From positions 186,001-250,000 of the forward strand of contig NZ_JAHUWT010000001.1 of NCBI RefSeq assembly GCF_019218885.1: a DNA stretch of 64,000 nucleotides, written 5' to 3'. Position 1 is the first letter of the stretch; the number at the start of each line of letters is the position of its first letter. The notes below the pieces were generated by a model, which saw nothing but the letters and a program-made list of their open reading frames with translations, made no database searches and was not told the origin of the DNA. The DNA comes from Bordetella sp. BOR01 (lineage in GTDB: Bacteria > Pseudomonadota > Gammaproteobacteria > Burkholderiales > Burkholderiaceae_B). The position numbers were made by a program, and so were the translations under genes. This document shows, in pieces, positions 38,813 to 45,187 of this stretch.

Positions 38813-38906
38813 GCGCACGCGGCAAGGCAAGCCGGGGTGTCGCGGGCCTGGCCGGCAGGTGTGCAGCAAGGCCTGGAACCGGGCATGGCTTGCGGCGCCG
38901 ACAAAT

Positions 38907-38926
38907 TCAACGAAAATTCGACGCGG
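38907..38926 (+). repeat. 20-bp direct repeat, copy 1
   Basis: Identical to 39084-39103. It contains an inverted CGAA/TTCG core. It sits upstream of the glycosyltransferase operon. Confidence 0.8.
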
Positions 38927-39083
38927 CGCCCCTCACGCTGAACGCCTTTGTCCCGGGGCGCGGCCCATCATGCTTACCTGGCGTCATGCCGACGCCGCCC
39001 ATCGCCATGGTAAGCGCGGGCCTGGGGCGGCTTGCGCTTGCTTCTTGCAAAACCCTGGGAAAACGCATCCGATAAGAAAAAGC

Positions 39084-39103
39084 TCAACGAAAATTCGACG
39101 CGG
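39084..39103 (+). repeat. 20-bp direct repeat, copy 2
   Basis: Identical to 38907-38926. It lies 42 bases before the start codon of the GT2 gene, in the range expected for a promoter-proximal regulator site. Confidence 0.8.
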
Positions 39104-39145
39104 GGGCTGTGCATACTGCGCGTTCCTATCCTGCAAGCACCTGCC

Positions 39146-40225
39146 ATGCCGATCGAGTTCCGCTCCGAGGGGGTAACGTCCGTCTTGCCTTCCTCTCTGG
39201 CTACCGCGCCTTCTTCGCGTGCGGCCATACCGCTGCATGCGCTGCCCGCCAACCCTGACAAGTCTGGCGAAGTGCTCATCAGTTGCGTGATTCCCTGCCT
39301 GAATGAGTGCGATAACTTGCGCCTGTTGCTGCCCGCCCTGCGCGCCCAGCTGGAAGCGCTGTGCCCGCAATGGGAGATCATCGTCGTTGACGATGGCAGC
39401 ACCGACGCCACCCCCGATTTGATGGCCGCATGGGCGCCCATAGAAGGGATGCGCTACATACAGCTGTCGAGGAACTTCGGCAAGGAAGCCGCGCTATCGG
39501 CCGGATTCGAAGCCGCCGACGGCGACGCGGTAATCTGCCTGGATGCCGACCTGCAGCATCCGCCGACGTTGATCGGCGCCATGCTGGAACGCTGGCGTGC
39601 CGGTGCGGAGATGGTCTATGCGGTGCGTGCCGATCGCCACGGCGAGTCCTGGCTAAAGCGCATGGGGGCGCACACGTTCTATCGGCTGCTCAGTGGCGGG
39701 AACCGGGTTCAAGTTCCGGCCCATGCGGGCGACTTCCGGTTGATGGATCGACGCGTGGTCAGCGCACTGATCGCGTTACCCGAACGCACGCGCTTCATGA
39801 AAGGCTTGTATGCCTGGGTCGGTTTTCGCGCCGAAGCCTTGCCTTATACGCCCGATGCCCGCGTGCACGGCACCAGCCGCTACAAAGCCCGGACGCTGCT
39901 GCGCCTGGCACTGGATGGCTTGACCGCCTTTACCACCTGGCCGTTGCGCATGGTCAGCCTGCTGGGCTGCGCATTTTCGCTGGCGTCGTTCGCCTATGGT
40001 GGCTATCTGGTGCTGACCTACCTGGTCAGCGGCAACCAGGTGTCGGGCTGGACCACCATCGTCACCGCGCTGCTGTTCTTTGCCGGTGTGAACCTGATTT
40101 CCCTGGGGGTGGTCGGCGAGTATGTGGCTCGCATCTTCGATGAGGTCAAGGAACGGCCGCTGTTCGTCATTCGCCAGCGGCGCGGCCGCGCCAGGCGCGC
40201 CAGCACGCAGCGGACGCAGCCATGA
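39146..40225 (+). CDS. GT2 polyprenyl-phosphate glycosyltransferase (ArnC/LgmA-like)
   Basis: 359 residues from the ATG at 39146; the frame is open upstream to 39032 but the leader there has no support. The GT-A catalytic domain spans about 44-250: 'ISCVIPCLNECDNLRLLLPA', 'IIVVDDGSTDATPDL', 'CLDADLQHPP' with the DxD-type metal site. Two C-terminal membrane helices follow ('MVSLLGCAFSLASFAYGGYL', 'TIVTALLFFAGVNLISLGVV'). Such enzymes load a sugar onto undecaprenyl or dolichyl phosphate at the cytoplasmic face. The gene overlaps the ArnT-like gene by 4 bases. In Bordetella the equivalent step is loading GlcNAc for lipid A modification. Confidence 0.88.
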   Translation: MPIEFRSEGVTSVLPSSLATAPSSRAAIPLHALPANPDKSGEVLISCVIPCLNECDNLRLLLPALRAQLEALCPQWEIIVVDDGSTDATPDLMAAWAPIEGMRYIQLSRNFGKEAALSAGFEAADGDAVICLDADLQHPPTLIGAMLERWRAGAEMVYAVRADRHGESWLKRMGAHTFYRLLSGGNRVQVPAHAGDFRLMDRRVVSALIALPERTRFMKGLYAWVGFRAEALPYTPDARVHGTSRYKARTLLRLALDGLTAFTTWPLRMVSLLGCAFSLASFAYGGYLVLTYLVSGNQVSGWTTIVTALLFFAGVNLISLGVVGEYVARIFDEVKERPLFVIRQRRGRARRASTQRTQP

Positions 40226-41817
40226 GCCCGTCTCGCGAATCCGGGGCATCGGCCTGGATGCCCCCCGCCGGCCTGTTGCTGCTGGCCGCAGGCATCTGGC
40301 TGGGTTGGCTGGCATGGGCGCGCCCGCTGACCCTGCCCGACGAAGGGCGCTATGCGGGCGTGGCCTGGGAAATGTTGCGCAGCGGGTCGCACGCGGTGCC
40401 CTTGCTCGATGGGATGCCTTATTTCCACAAGCCGCCCTTGTATTACTGGCTGGCCGAATTGTGCTTTCAGCTGTTCGGCCTGAACGAATGGGCCGCCCGC
40501 CTGCCGTCATGGCTGGCCGCCTGGGCGGCATTGGCCGGCCTGTATGGTTTCGTGCGGCGCTATCGCGGCACGGCCACGGCCACCATGGCAGCCGTCATCC
40601 TGGCAACCATGCCTTTCTATTACGGTGGGGCGCAATTCGCCAATACCGACATGCTGGTGGCGGGCCTGGTGACCCTGTGCGTGCTGGCGGGTGCCGATGC
40701 CGTGCTGCGTGCCGAGGCCGGCCACGCCCATCGGGCCATGTCCCTGGCCGCCGCCGCGCTGGCTGCCCTGGCGGTGCTGGCCAAGGGCCTGATCGGGCTG
40801 GTGCTGCCGGGGGCCATCCTGTGTCTGTGGTTACTGCTGGCGCGCCGCTGGCGCGGTTATATCGTGTTGTTGTGGCCGCCCGCGCTGGCCGTCTTCGCGC
40901 TGCTGGCCGTGCCGTGGTTCTGGCTGATGCAACAGCGCTTTCCCGGCTTCTTTCATTATTTCTTCGTGTACCAGCATTTCGAACGGTTCGCGCGGTCGGG
41001 CTTCAATAATGTGCAGCCGTTCTGGTTCTACCTGCCCGTCATCGCCGGCCTGACGCTGCCCTGGTCGTTGTGGGGCGGTGGGGGGTTGCGCAAGGCATTC
41101 TGGACAACGCAAGACCGGAGCGGGCTGCGCAGCCTGATGGCGGTGTGGGTGGTCGTGGTGCTGGGCTTTTTTTCCATTCCCGGTTCGAAGCTGATCGGTT
41201 ATGTGGTGCCTGCGCTGCCGCCCTTGGCCGCCCTGCTGGCCGACATCGTGCACCAGGCCATGCAGCGCGGCGATTCGCTGCGCCAGCGCCGCCTGGCATG
41301 GAAATGCGCAGCGTTGTCGGCCGGCCTGTGTATCGCACTGGTGGCTGTGTTCGCGGCCAACCCGCGGCGCAGCGCAGAACCCCTGGGCCGCCGCATCGCC
41401 GCCGAAATGCGCGCCACCGACATGCTGGTGACGTTGCACGCCTATCCGTTCGACCTGGGCTTTTACACCGGCGCACGGCAGCCCGCCTGGGTGGTCGACG
41501 ACTGGGGCAACCCCGAAATTCCATTGCGCGACAACTGGCGCAAGGAACTCTACGACGCGGGCCGCTTCGCGCCCGGGACCGGCCGGCGTGTCCTGGTGCA
41601 AAGTGAAGCGCTGCCGGCGCGCCTGTGCGCAGCGCCGCCCGAAAGCCGCTTCTGGATCTGGGGCGGTGTTGAGGACGGGGCGCGCTTTCCCGTTCTGCAA
41701 GAGGCACCGGTTCGCTTTTCAGATGCTCATTACAACGTCTGGCGGATCGACACCGATGATGCCTTCAGGCGGCGATTTTGCGGCGAAACGCCCATAGGCG
41801 GCTCGCCAGGAAGGTAA
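40222..41817 (+). CDS. GT39 glycosyltransferase, ArnT-like (LgmB-like)
   Basis: 531 residues with about 12 membrane segments. ArnT-type transferases move an amino sugar from undecaprenyl phosphate to lipid A phosphates in the periplasm. The catalytic first periplasmic loop 'LTLPDEGRYAGVAWEMLRSG' (about 36-55) holds the Asp-Glu pair, followed by 'MPYFHKPPLYYWLAEL'. The soluble C-terminal part is about 130 residues. Its 3' end overlaps the convergent GtrA-like gene by 53 bases. Context makes glucosamine or another sugar on lipid A the likely product; aminoarabinose is unlikely because no arnABD-type genes are present. Confidence 0.88.
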   Translation: MSPSRESGASAWMPPAGLLLLAAGIWLGWLAWARPLTLPDEGRYAGVAWEMLRSGSHAVPLLDGMPYFHKPPLYYWLAELCFQLFGLNEWAARLPSWLAAWAALAGLYGFVRRYRGTATATMAAVILATMPFYYGGAQFANTDMLVAGLVTLCVLAGADAVLRAEAGHAHRAMSLAAAALAALAVLAKGLIGLVLPGAILCLWLLLARRWRGYIVLLWPPALAVFALLAVPWFWLMQQRFPGFFHYFFVYQHFERFARSGFNNVQPFWFYLPVIAGLTLPWSLWGGGGLRKAFWTTQDRSGLRSLMAVWVVVVLGFFSIPGSKLIGYVVPALPPLAALLADIVHQAMQRGDSLRQRRLAWKCAALSAGLCIALVAVFAANPRRSAEPLGRRIAAEMRATDMLVTLHAYPFDLGFYTGARQPAWVVDDWGNPEIPLRDNWRKELYDAGRFAPGTGRRVLVQSEALPARLCAAPPESRFWIWGGVEDGARFPVLQEAPVRFSDAHYNVWRIDTDDAFRRRFCGETPIGGSPGR

Positions 41818-42160
41818 GTACCGCCAGCCCCAGCAAGATAAGCGCCAGCAGTATGTCGTAGCGCAGGCGCGTCGTGTGCAGCAGCAATGCATACGACACT
41901 TCATTGAACAGGAATCCGCACGCCGAGATCAGGAAGAAGCGGCGCGCGGCGATGGTCCAGTGTGACGCCAGATGGCGGAAAGTGAGTCGATAATGGCCCG
42001 TGAACGATACGATGAATGCAACCAGCCAGCCTGCCGCATTGGCGGCCAGGGGCGGCATGCCCAGCAGTTCCACGCAGCCCACGGCAACCCCCCAGTGCGT
42101 GGCCGCGGCCGCGCAGCCTACCGCAATGAACCAGCCTATTTGTTTGATCAAGGGGGGCAT
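41765..42160 (-). CDS. GtrA-like membrane protein (polyprenyl-sugar flippase candidate)
   Basis: 131 residues with four hydrophobic helices; start at the ATG at 42160. The GtrA/DPMS3 family pattern is visible: 'FIAVGCAAAATHWGVAVGCV', 'NAAGWLVAFIVSFTGHYRLT' and 'RFFLISACGFLFNEVSYALL'. GtrA-type proteins are thought to flip polyprenyl-phosphate sugars across the inner membrane, the step needed between the GT2 and ArnT-like enzymes. It is on the opposite strand to both, overlapping the ArnT-like 3' end, and is divergent from the deacetylase gene. Confidence 0.82.
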   Translation of the reverse strand: MPPLIKQIGWFIAVGCAAAATHWGVAVGCVELLGMPPLAANAAGWLVAFIVSFTGHYRLTFRHLASHWTIAARRFFLISACGFLFNEVSYALLLHTTRLRYDILLALILLGLAVLTFLASRLWAFRRKIAA

Positions 42161-42175
42161 GGCGAATCTGGCTAT

Positions 42176-43090
42176 GTGGACAAGTGCCGCACGCAAGGTG
42201 CGGCAGGCGTCTGGTGGAAACGCATCGTGGTGTGTGGCGACGATTTTGGCATGAATACGGCAATCGATGCCGGCATGTTGCACCTGGCGCTATCGGGACG
42301 GCTGAGCGGCATCGGCAGCCTGACGCAGGGCCCCACGTTTGCCGCCCATGGCCCCGACCTGCGTGCCCTGGATCTGGACCTGGGCGTGCACGTGAACCTG
42401 ACCGAAGCCATGGGCTCGGCAGCGCAGGCGCCGGTGATGCCGTTGCACGCGCTGATCGCGCGAGCCTACGCAAACCGCCTGGATGGCGCCTGGCTGGACG
42501 AGCAATTGGCTCGCCAGTTCGACGCCTTTGAAAAGGTGATGGGCCGCTCGCCGGACTATGTGGATGGCCATCAGCACGTGCACCAGTTGCCCGGCGTGCT
42601 GCCGCGCCTGTTGCGCCTGATACGGCAGCGCTACGGCCGATGCGCGCCATGGCTGCGCCATACCGCGCCCGGCATGCAGGAAGGCATCCCGCTGCGCGAA
42701 GCGGCCAAGGCCCGCTTGATCGGCGCCCTGGGTGCCCGCGCGCTTGCGCGGGCGGCCCGTCTTGAGGGCCTGCGCACCAATCGCCGCCTGCTGGGGGTTT
42801 ATTGCCTGCAAGGCGGCGCTCGCCGTTATGCCGAGCTTCTGCAAGGCTGGTTCAGCAACGCCCGCGACGGCGATCTGCTGCTCTGCCACCCGGCCCTTCC
42901 GGGCGCTGGCGATGCGCTGGCCACACAGCGCGCGGCTGAATTCGAAGTGCTGGCGCGTCCGGAACTGGGCGACTGGATGCGATTGAACGGTATATGCATC
43001 ACGCGGCCGCCATCGGGGGGCCGGGGCATCGCAACCGGCATCGGCCGCCATACAGCGGCACGCCTGTGGGCGCCGCCGTGTTCGTCCTAG
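42176..43090 (+). CDS. YdjC/ChbG-family deacetylase (LgmC-like)
   Basis: About 304 residues if started at the GTG at 42176; a GTG at 42227 is the alternative, and no ATG fits. The family is metal-dependent carbohydrate deacetylases. Metal-site motifs are 'VVCGDDFGMN' (double Asp), 'GVHVNLTEAM', 'YVDGHQHVHQLP' and 'LLCHPA'. In Bordetella a deacetylase converts polyprenyl-linked GlcNAc to glucosamine before transfer to lipid A; the neighbours make that role likely here. It begins 16 bases from the divergent GtrA-like gene. A terminator-like hairpin follows. Confidence 0.82.
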   Translation: MDKCRTQGAAGVWWKRIVVCGDDFGMNTAIDAGMLHLALSGRLSGIGSLTQGPTFAAHGPDLRALDLDLGVHVNLTEAMGSAAQAPVMPLHALIARAYANRLDGAWLDEQLARQFDAFEKVMGRSPDYVDGHQHVHQLPGVLPRLLRLIRQRYGRCAPWLRHTAPGMQEGIPLREAAKARLIGALGARALARAARLEGLRTNRRLLGVYCLQGGARRYAELLQGWFSNARDGDLLLCHPALPGAGDALATQRAAEFEVLARPELGDWMRLNGICITRPPSGGRGIATGIGRHTAARLWAPPCSS

Positions 43091-43106
43091 AATAGATGGT
43101 TATTGC

Positions 43107-43125
43107 CGGTGGCTCGATGCCACCG
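43107..43125 (+). terminator. Hairpin with short T-run after the deacetylase gene
   Basis: CGGTGGC (43107-43113) pairs with GCCACCG (43119-43125) around TCGAT, followed by TTT. It starts 17 bases after the deacetylase stop and is the best intrinsic-terminator candidate in this cluster. It separates the deacetylase from the two-component genes. Confidence 0.55.
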
Positions 43126-43178
43126 TTTCCCTCACGGCCGACGAATGCCAAGGTGCCGCGTACCGGATCCCATCGCCC

Positions 43179-43889
43179 ATGACCACCGTCTCCGTCAATG
43201 CACACTACCGGATACTGATCGTCGAAGACGACCTGACTATCGCGGGCAACCTGTACCAGTTCCTGGAAGTGAGTGGCTTCGTGCCCGACGTGGCCTACGA
43301 TGGCCGCACGGCGCTGCGCATGCTCGACGCCCAGCGGTTCGACGCGGTGGTGCTGGATGTGGGGCTGCCCGGGTTGGACGGCTATCAAGTGCTGCACGCG
43401 CTGCGGCTGGAGCGGCGCCAGGCCATTCCCGTATTGATGCTGACCGCGCGCGATGCGCTGGATGACAAGCTGGCCGGTTTCGCGCACGGCGCCGACGACT
43501 ATCTGACCAAGCCCTTCGCGCTGGCCGAGGTGCAGGCGCGCCTGCTGGCCTTGATCCATCGGGCGCAGGGGGCCGTGGTGGACGCGGTGCGCGAGTTCGG
43601 CCCTTTACAGTTCGATGGGCGTACGCGCAGCGTATCCGTGGCCGGACGCCCGGTACGGCTGACCCGCAAATCCGGCCTGATCGTCGAGGCCCTGCTGCGT
43701 GACCCAGGCCGGATGGTCCCGCGCGAGGAACTCGAAGCACTGCTGTGGGATGACGAGCCGCCCTCGACCGATGCGTTGCGCAGCCAGATGCACCTGCTGC
43801 GGCGCGCCCTGGTCGAAGCGGGCTTCGATGGCATCGAGACGATGCACGGCATCGGCTGGCGGTTGGTCATGCCCGAGGCGGGCGCATGA
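43179..43889 (+). CDS. OmpR-family response regulator
   Basis: 236 residues. The receiver domain spans about 10-125 with the acidic pocket 'VEDD', phosphoacceptor Asp60 in 'VVLDVGLPGLDG', the switch 'LTARD' and Lys in 'YLTKPF'. The C-terminal winged-helix DNA-binding domain covers about 140-232 ('RLTRKSGLIVEALLRDPGRM', 'MHGIGWRLVMP'). It resembles the QseB/PmrA branch. It overlaps the kinase gene by 4 bases. It is a plausible regulator of the adjacent glycan-modification genes. Confidence 0.9.
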   Translation: MTTVSVNAHYRILIVEDDLTIAGNLYQFLEVSGFVPDVAYDGRTALRMLDAQRFDAVVLDVGLPGLDGYQVLHALRLERRQAIPVLMLTARDALDDKLAGFAHGADDYLTKPFALAEVQARLLALIHRAQGAVVDAVREFGPLQFDGRTRSVSVAGRPVRLTRKSGLIVEALLRDPGRMVPREELEALLWDDEPPSTDALRSQMHLLRRALVEAGFDGIETMHGIGWRLVMPEAGA

Positions 43890-45187
43890 GGGGTGGCACG
43901 CTTACCCAGCGCGTTGTCTGGGCGCTGACGGGGGCGGTGACCGTGTTCGTCGCTGCGCTGGCCCTGCTGGCGTACCTGGCGTTCGACCAAATGGAAGACG
44001 GGCTGGTCGACCAGATCCTGACGACCGAAGCCGAGCGGGTTGCGCAGCACGTGGCGGCTGAAGCGCAATTCCTGCCACCCCATGGTGCGCGGGAATTGGG
44101 CGGTTCGATGCGGGCCTGGCTGCAGGACGGCCAGGTTCCGGACGACATGCCGGCCCAGTTGCAAGGCCTGTCTCCGGGCCTGCATTTGCTGGAACCGGGC
44201 GCGGAAACCTGGCACGTCATGGTTACCGATACCCCGCGCGGCCGTCTTTACGTGTTGTACAACGCCACCGACCATGAAGCGCGAGTGCGCGATTTCGGCT
44301 TGATCGTGCTGGGCATGGGCGCGCTGTGCATCATTGCCGCCTACGCGCTGTCGCGCCGGGTGGCCGGCGTGGCGGTGGGGCCGCTTCTGGACCTGACCGG
44401 CCGGCTGTCGAACTGGGCGCCCGGTTCGCCCGACATGGCCGTCACGCGCGACGACGAAGCGGGCCAGCTGATCGAAGCCTTCAACCGGGTGCAGAACCAG
44501 GTCGACCGCTCGATCGCCCGCGAGCGCGAGTTTGCCGCCAATCTCAGCCACGAGGCCCGCACGCCACTGGCCGCCATTCGTTCCGACAGCGAGATCATGC
44601 TGCTGGATGCCACGCTTCCCGCCGACACCCGGCTGCGCCTGACGCGCATCGTGACCAATGTCGACCACATCGTGGCCTCGCTGGAAAGCGCGCGTTCCAT
44701 GGCCAGCGATCAACCCCGCCCCGCCGAGGACGTGGATTTGGCGGCTTGCATGGATGACGCCTGGCGTGGCCTGGAGGTCGAGGCCGATGCAGCCGGCCTG
44801 TCGTTCTACAACCGCATTCCCGGCGGCACGGTGTATTTGCTGGATCGCTACGCGCTGTTGACGGTGTTGCGCAACCTGGTGCGTAACTCTATCGAACACG
44901 CTGCCCCGGCGACCCTGACCGCGGCGCTGATCGCCGACGGCACACTAGAGCTGCGCGACACCGGCAAGGGCATCGCCCCCGAAGAGCTGCCGTTCGTGTT
45001 CCAGCGTTATTACAGCGGCCGGCTGGGCGACACGCCTACCGCCTTGCCCGATGACGGCGGCTTTCCTCGCGGCCTGGGGCTGGCCATTGCCAAGCGTGTC
45101 TGCGACATGCAGCGATGGCATCTGCAGGTCGAATCCGAGCGTGGGGGGGAAAGCCATGGCGCGCGCTTCCAGTTGCGCCTGTTATAG
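43886..45187 (+). CDS. Membrane sensor histidine kinase
   Basis: 433 residues. TM1 is at about 12-32 and TM2 at about 135-155 ('LIVLGMGALCIIAAYALSRR'), giving a periplasmic sensor of about 100 residues. A HAMP-like linker and the dimerisation/phosphoacceptor domain with His222 in 'NLSHEARTPLAAIRSD' follow. The ATPase domain has the N box 'LVRNSIEHA', G1 'ELRDTGKGI' and G2 'RGLGLAIAKR'. It phosphorylates the response regulator encoded just upstream. The signal is unknown; cationic peptides, pH or metal would fit a PmrB-like role. Confidence 0.9.
   Translation: MRGGTLTQRVVWALTGAVTVFVAALALLAYLAFDQMEDGLVDQILTTEAERVAQHVAAEAQFLPPHGARELGGSMRAWLQDGQVPDDMPAQLQGLSPGLHLLEPGAETWHVMVTDTPRGRLYVLYNATDHEARVRDFGLIVLGMGALCIIAAYALSRRVAGVAVGPLLDLTGRLSNWAPGSPDMAVTRDDEAGQLIEAFNRVQNQVDRSIAREREFAANLSHEARTPLAAIRSDSEIMLLDATLPADTRLRLTRIVTNVDHIVASLESARSMASDQPRPAEDVDLAACMDDAWRGLEVEADAAGLSFYNRIPGGTVYLLDRYALLTVLRNLVRNSIEHAAPATLTAALIADGTLELRDTGKGIAPEELPFVFQRYYSGRLGDTPTALPDDGGFPRGLGLAIAKRVCDMQRWHLQVESERGGESHGARFQLRLL

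Follow-up and report, generated by a model that had tools for sequence, protein, structure and literature searches.

In Bordetella pertussis and B. parapertussis, the lgm locus has been reported to place glucosamine (GlcN) on the lipid A phosphates, with lgmA, lgmB, and lgmC described as essential and lgmD as non-essential in B. pertussis, and an lgm orthologue was reported together with GlcN in B. holmesii. In Achromobacter, the lipid A sugar was reported as proven to be glucosamine by gas chromatography-mass spectrometry, and polymyxin B was described as raising the GlcN share of lipid A in two isolates, A. xylosoxidans AC088 and A. deleyi AC075, as measured in a way that the authors considered not quantitative. 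Lipid A glucosamine is reported to influence how Bordetella activates TLR4 and resists cationic peptides. In Achromobacter, its association with resistance to polymyxin was described by a study that mentions neither lgm nor arn nor a two-component system in its main text. The PmrA sites of Salmonella were described as direct repeats of YTTAAK, and pmrC and naxD are named in work on PmrA of Acinetobacter baumannii. Here, we analyzed a 64,000-nucleotide stretch of Bordetella sp. BOR01 (contig NZ_JAHUWT010000001.1, positions 186,001 to 250,000; the whole stretch is called the window), in which positions 39146 to 45187 carry an lgm-type gene set joined to a two-component regulator pair.

The reading that we favor, with a probability of about 0.7, is that of an lgm-type locus with a PhoB/PmrA-type promoter, which would be controlled by the adjacent regulator and has been joined with it at a new site. 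The chemistry is already known; what appears to be new, within the literature searched, is that lgm and the regulator form a relocated unit and that the lgm promoter has a conserved box. Nothing combining lgmA, a response regulator, polymyxin, and Bordetella was found in that literature, and the search on lgmB with Achromobacter returned only unrelated work.

Gene content and conserved order of the lgm-type locus

The locus consists of the six genes named in the initial annotation, at the coordinates given there, and each of them has Pfam domains that exceed the gathering cut-offs:

39146..40225, + strand: lgmA-type GT2, predicted polyprenyl-phosphate sugar transferase, presumably forming undecaprenyl phosphate-linked N-acetylglucosamine (UndP-GlcNAc); PF00535, 113 bits
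40222..41817, + strand: predicted lgmB-type ArnT-family lipid A glycosyltransferase; PMT_2 (PF13231), 65.8 bits
41765..42160, − strand (antisense): GtrA-like small membrane protein, predicted flippase; PF04138, 70.1 bits
42209..43090, + strand: YdjC-family deacetylase, predicted UndP-GlcNAc deacetylase; PF04794, 136.2 bits
43179..43889, + strand: response regulator of the OmpR/PhoB family, PmrA/QseB-like; Response_reg (PF00072) and Trans_reg_C (PF00486)
43886..45187, + strand: sensor histidine kinase; HisKA (PF00512) and HATPase_c (PF02518)

The order and strands of the GT2, ArnT, GtrA, and YdjC genes recur in 43 of the 80 named loci, which are those fetched with the ArnT-like family, and GtrA is antisense in all 43 complete loci; the rest are 35 lone ArnT-like genes and two partial loci, one of them broken by a contig end. 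Such clustering of the four genes exceeds chance. The same order was found in B. hinzii, B. pseudohinzii, B. trematum, and B. ansorpii (group g36), in the B. petrii group, in Achromobacter (included in group g4; among the relatives with lgm-type loci are A. xylosoxidans, A. insuavis, and A. deleyi), in Pigmentiphaga (group g43), and in others. Within the window's genus, which includes B. petrii BT 1 9.2 (G002), Bordetella genomosp. 2 (G007), and B. petrii MY10 (G004), a close ArnT-like match (71–100% identity) was present in seven of nine genomes, its own included, and a search for a second ArnT-like gene in the window's own genome found none.

ArnT proteins are reported to carry a YFEKP motif. 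The window protein has the RYA motif and reads YFHKP, and this motif, with its invariant H69, was found in all 25 rows aligned, among them that of the window. These rows came from whole-genome protein searches and were kept at an identity of at least 56% and in the absence of inner stops, which left out L008–L010, L012, L013, L019, L020, and L025. FHKPP was also present in 78 of 78 named loci, a biased figure since one of the scan patterns was FHKPPL[YF]Y. Among solved structures, the ArnT-like protein has a match in that of ArnT, 5ezm (E = 2e-43), and the YdjC protein, in which the motifs GDDFG, GVHVN, and DGHQHVH were found, weakly matches a chitooligosaccharide deacetylase structure (E = 1e-5).

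A GT2, an ArnT-family transferase, and a deacetylase thus occur together, YdjC corresponding to lgmC by function, and the lgm-type assignment of the initial annotation is borne out by homology, by a gene order kept across named species of Bordetella and Achromobacter, and by the YFHKP signature. It is also consistent with the reported presence of GlcN on lipid A phosphates in both genera. Genes were found for all four lgm functions that had been proposed. GtrA may be dispensable if it corresponds to lgmD, which is reported as non-essential in B. pertussis.

The GtrA gene begins with a methionine codon at 42160, ends at 41765, and shares 53 bp with the 3′ end of the ArnT-like gene. The divergent YdjC gene most likely starts at the GTG at 42209, and the response regulator and kinase genes overlap by 4 bp. 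A transcript reaching YdjC would run against the antisense GtrA gene (41765–42160 within 40222–43090), an arrangement that may represent a non-contiguous operon.

Lone ArnT-like genes (about 46–61% identity) without GT2, GtrA, and YdjC were observed at L088, L089, L091, L095, and L096 and at 30 other named loci, and G122, G169, and G052 each have a lone ArnT-like gene while one of their lgm loci lacks ArnT. A second four-gene set (L040–L042, in G003, G001, and G002) was considered as the true lgm and was rejected, because the compared Bordetella loci, including that of G097, match the window type. This set also has an antisense GtrA, and its PMT, GT2, and YdjC proteins show 31%, 43%, and about 62% identity; its neighbors read like metal-efflux and two-component genes, as judged without a family search, and the YdjC gene of G001 is split into two distant pieces. 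We take G001 to be B. petrii DSM 12804 and G097 to be B. pertussis 18323, both labels being probable.

Relocation of the locus and of the regulator pair

Among the 15 unjoined lgm loci listed, 14 have dnaQ and/or fusA beside lgm, and the remaining one (L102) has neither within the stretch examined. Both genes were found at L036 and L037 (G003 and G001, of the window's genus) and at L051, and one of the two at 11 loci, among which the two from Achromobacter show dnaQ only. The lgm locus of the window is sited elsewhere, this position being inessential to function, and the dnaQ-fusA site of its genome keeps only a copy of YdjC (L166, 8658–9446), which is 76% identical over 263 residues and open over at least 266 codons, with a Tyr replacing the first His of DGHQHVH. 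A lone YdjC remnant was also found at the old site in G002, G004, G005, and G007, and the old site of G052 (Achromobacter sp. Marseille-Q4962) keeps GT2, GtrA, and YdjC, ArnT being gone. The lgm genes and the regulator pair, which are unlinked in most of the relatives examined, are joined at a new site in the window, and a lone YdjC was left behind.

The regulator pair has also left a site. In six copies compared (G001, G003, G097, G199, G150, and the second kinase of G052), the native pair lies away from lgm and adjoins a gene that we take to be D-2-hydroxyglutarate dehydrogenase-like. This native site is empty, with abutting flanking genes, in all five joined genomes of the genus (G000, G002, G004, G005, and G007). 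The joined pair stands downstream of lgm in G000, G002, and G007 and upstream of it in G004 and G005; in G052, the kinase alone is upstream of the joined lgm, and a PAP2 gene occupies the place of the regulator. An orthologous pair was present within the 8-kb flanks of three of the 43 complete named loci (L072–L074), and the kinase was seen at L075, the locus broken by a contig end. The initial annotation had described a locus with its own two-component system: the adjacency holds, but the pair is not peculiar to the locus, since at least 77 of the 200 family genomes contain a match to the kinase at E ≤ 1e-60, a lower bound obtained with up to eight candidates scored per genome, and the native copies examined lie elsewhere.

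In phylogenetic trees, the ArnT of the joined locus in G052 is placed within the B. petrii-group clade (SH-aLRT 99), and a branch of 99 separates its joined kinase from the Achromobacter kinases, while its retained native kinase groups with Achromobacter (100). The joined unit was therefore probably passed between genera. The trees were made by a quick method and have many open forks, and only the clades named here were used.

An acyl-CoA ligase/liv block adjoins the locus in the window and is also present in six relatives, in which a stretch of about 450 bp is conserved 3′ of the ligase; this stretch had no match in the part of the window tested, and the further neighbors vary. Precise insertion boundaries were not found, and no search for mobile elements was made. 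No gene other than PAP2 was shared by the flanks listed for the joined loci. In the region of the locus, no terminator was found, and a single promoter-like match did not stand above shuffled sequences.

A conserved box upstream of lgmA

An 18-bp direct repeat with an 11-bp period is present in two copies 5′ of the window lgmA:

38906..38923, + strand: distal regulator-type box TTCAACGAAAATTCGACG, a direct repeat with an 11-bp period
39083..39100, + strand: proximal box CTCAACGAAAATTCGACG, within a 20-nt exact repeat of the distal box, 177 bp apart
39112..39117, + strand: putative −10 element CATACT, 11 nt 3′ of the proximal box

The exact sequence TTCRACGNNNNTTCRACG has a single match in the 6.18-Mb genome, which is the distal box, and with one mismatch it has two matches in the window versus 0.04 expected. 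When the 200 family genomes were scanned with the degenerate pattern TTYNAYGAAAATTYRACG, 43 matches were obtained in 35 genomes, against one for the reversed control, and 35 of the 43 lie at lgm loci by their coordinates. These 35 include matches in G122, in G169 (two loci), and at the old site of G052, where GT2 and YdjC occur without ArnT, as well as those preceding PAP2 in G002 and G052. In relatives, boxes with at most three mismatches are mostly located 22–86 bp 5′ of the predicted lgmA start. The lgm loci of other A. xylosoxidans and A. deleyi strains carry the box, and G097 carries TTTGATGAAAATTTGACG 5′ of lgmA. About 10 nt 3′ of the box, CATACT is 79–97% conserved per position in 66 distinct, partly related sequences that were aligned on the box, although it was not selected for. 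A direct repeat at this spacing from a −10 element is the layout of activator promoters of the PhoB/PmrA type. The kinase was found in 33 of the 35 genomes with a box, a count uncorrected for kinship; G018 and G050 have no kinase match at 1e-60.

The eight boxes found away from lgm comprise three within about 1–5 kb of the regulator pair, one before eptA, one before a PAP2 gene, and three others. Of the first three, two are in B. ansorpii genomes and precede sulfatase genes at distances of about 2 and 5 kb from the native pair, and one is in G138 and precedes dgkA, about 1 kb from the pair; the eptA gene is divergent from a similar pair in G050, and the PAP2 gene lies away from lgm in G005. 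In genomes of 4–7 Mb, three of eight boxes within 5 kb of one pair is far above chance, the two B. ansorpii not being independent. In G005, one box precedes the joined response regulator and kinase genes and another precedes lgmA. Among six native regulator loci fetched regardless of the box (L196–L201), two, both from Achromobacter (L199 and L201), have a box with two mismatches just after the kinase, and L198 has a copy with four mismatches between the kinase and the sulfatase. Of 20 simulated sequences of 19 kb, two had a best copy with three mismatches, and in the other 18 the best copy had more. The loci L252–L254 were chosen for holding the box and lend no independent support to the link with the regulator. 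Taken together, the distribution of the box supports a putative PmrA-type control, and the PmrAB-like inducibility that the initial annotation had guessed from adjacency now has the evidence of a conserved cis-element.

A sulfatase-family gene was seen near the native pair at L198–L201 and L252–L254, with PF00884 in the three genes tested. It is a candidate member of the regulon, being preceded by the box in B. ansorpii and by a copy with two mismatches in G138.

A PAP2 phosphatase gene is part of four joined loci (G002, G004, G007, and G052), with a box before each; the Pfam PAP2 domain was confirmed for G002 and G052. No PAP2 match was found in the window, in which two boxes remain, and the distal box may therefore be a remnant of the promoter of a lost PAP2 gene. 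PAP2 genes with a box of their own were observed at L034, L035, L038, L043, and L247, beside the joined lgm or, in G005, alone. Since Achromobacter lipid A was reported to lose its C-1 phosphate under polymyxin, the boxed PAP2 gene is a candidate for a lipid A phosphatase.

Proposed control of the locus and comparison with known systems

Following the lgm and ArnT literature and the protein families, the GT2 would load GlcNAc onto undecaprenyl phosphate, the YdjC enzyme would deacetylate UndP-GlcNAc to GlcN, the GtrA protein would help to flip the UndP-linked sugar, and, on the periplasmic side, the ArnT-family enzyme would transfer the positively charged GlcN to the phosphates of outer-membrane lipid A. 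The box is most likely bound by the adjacent response regulator and takes the place of a −35 element about 10 bp before CATACT, and the kinase would read envelope signals and switch on the modification of lipid A. The genes and their conserved order, the relocation, the vacated sites, and the conservation of the box were observed; what we infer from sequence is the succession in which the sugar is loaded, deacetylated, flipped, and transferred, as well as its identity, its acceptor, the binding of the regulator, and the signal. Control by the neighboring regulator is the reading that best fits the adjacency in two arrangements together with the shared boxes.

The main competing explanation accepts the lgm locus but has the box read by another OmpR-family regulator, or the genes controlled by BvgAS, the neighboring pair being a passenger; we regard this as unlikely. 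Regulation of the lgm genes by BvgAS was reported for B. pertussis and B. bronchiseptica, many genomes with an unlinked pair nevertheless carry the box before lgm, the genomes G018 and G050 have boxes but no kinase match at 1e-60, and four of the six native regulator loci fetched regardless of the box are devoid of it. Other results also count against the reading that we favor. In the window, no separate box precedes the regulator genes; only a weak box or none is present 5′ of lgmA in B. hinzii, B. pseudohinzii, B. trematum, B. genomosp. 12, G043, and several loci that are more distant; and the native loci of the B. petrii group G001 and G003, of G097, and of B. hinzii G150 have no box with fewer than four mismatches. 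An envelope link was sought for three of the eight boxes away from lgm (G018, G054, and G142) and none was established, and G052 has no response regulator beside its joined kinase. The response regulator, whose best NCBIfam match is PmrA (156 bits versus a cut-off of 330), and the kinase, scored against PmrB (48 versus 314), both miss the curated cut-offs. Against the passenger explanation, however, the pair is joined to lgm on either side in different genomes, three of the eight boxes away from lgm in the 200 genomes are within about 5 kb of the pair, in G005 one box precedes the joined regulator genes and another lgmA, and the kinase is present in 33 of the 35 genomes with a box, kinship being uncorrected. 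Moreover, BvgA uses inverted heptad sites, which differ from the box.

The nature of the sugar was also considered. The nearest solved structure of the GT2 is the sll0501 glycosyltransferase (E = 1e-83), followed by ArnC, and the donor sugar is unreadable from the sequence, which is a further point against our reading. A galactosamine locus as in Francisella, or the decoration of another envelope polymer, seems highly improbable: an ArnT-family protein is reported to serve galactosamine in F. novicida, and sugar specificity cannot be read from sequence, but species whose lipid A carries GlcN have loci with these same four genes. A locus of the classical arn type, which would add 4-amino-4-deoxy-L-arabinose, is hardly credible and was rejected on the NCBIfam cut-offs and the YFHKP motif. 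ArnT is indeed both the best NCBIfam match and the nearest solved structure of the PMT gene product, and ArnC is the second NCBIfam match of the GT2; yet the scores are far below the cut-offs (170 of 529 bits for the ArnC-like NF007986 and 185 of 567 bits for ArnT NF009784), the window protein has YFHKP in place of YFEKP, and the deacetylase and the gene order fit lgm-type loci. The GT2 also scores below the cut-off of PgfS (NF047588, 256 bits).

Beyond the window, the chances appear about even that a PmrA-type promoter governs lgm across much of Bordetella and Achromobacter, in a variant form in G097, that lipid A GlcN would be under a so far unrecognized PmrAB-like pair besides BvgAS, and that in the B. 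petrii group the pair, the locus, and often PAP2 form one relocating unit. As a candidate for what controls lipid A glucosamine, the lgm box and the regulator pair are concrete and testable, and the interest of the finding would rise if the box proved functional in classical Bordetella.

Compared with described systems, the locus shares a YdjC-type deacetylase with Francisella, where this enzyme is NaxD. The galactosamine pathway of Francisella is also reported to use an ArnT-family transferase, but for another sugar. With PmrAB (BasRS), the system described here shares an OmpR-family regulator and a direct-repeat box, a putative regulator site, that precedes envelope genes, eptA and dgkA in group g43 (Pigmentiphaga) included. 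Its half-site is TTYRACG-like versus the YTTAAK of Salmonella PmrA, and the pair is called PmrAB-like and not PmrAB because the curated PmrA and PmrB cut-offs are unmet. The lgm-type loci of Achromobacter share the gene order and the box with the window, and those examined have no adjacent two-component gene, except for the kinase in Achromobacter sp. Marseille-Q4962. In the lgm locus of G097 (L054, 7914–10583), the lgmA-type gene is open, the ArnT-like gene is frameshifted, and a transposase gene, which we take to be IS481-like, is close by; YdjC had no match in this genome at E ≤ 0.001. Relative to the Bordetella lgmABCD genes, the GT2 and the ArnT-like protein of the window are 68% and, over a 312-residue stretch, 69% identical to those of G097, but, unlike Bordetella lgm, the locus of the window lies away from dnaQ-fusA and is joined to a two-component system.

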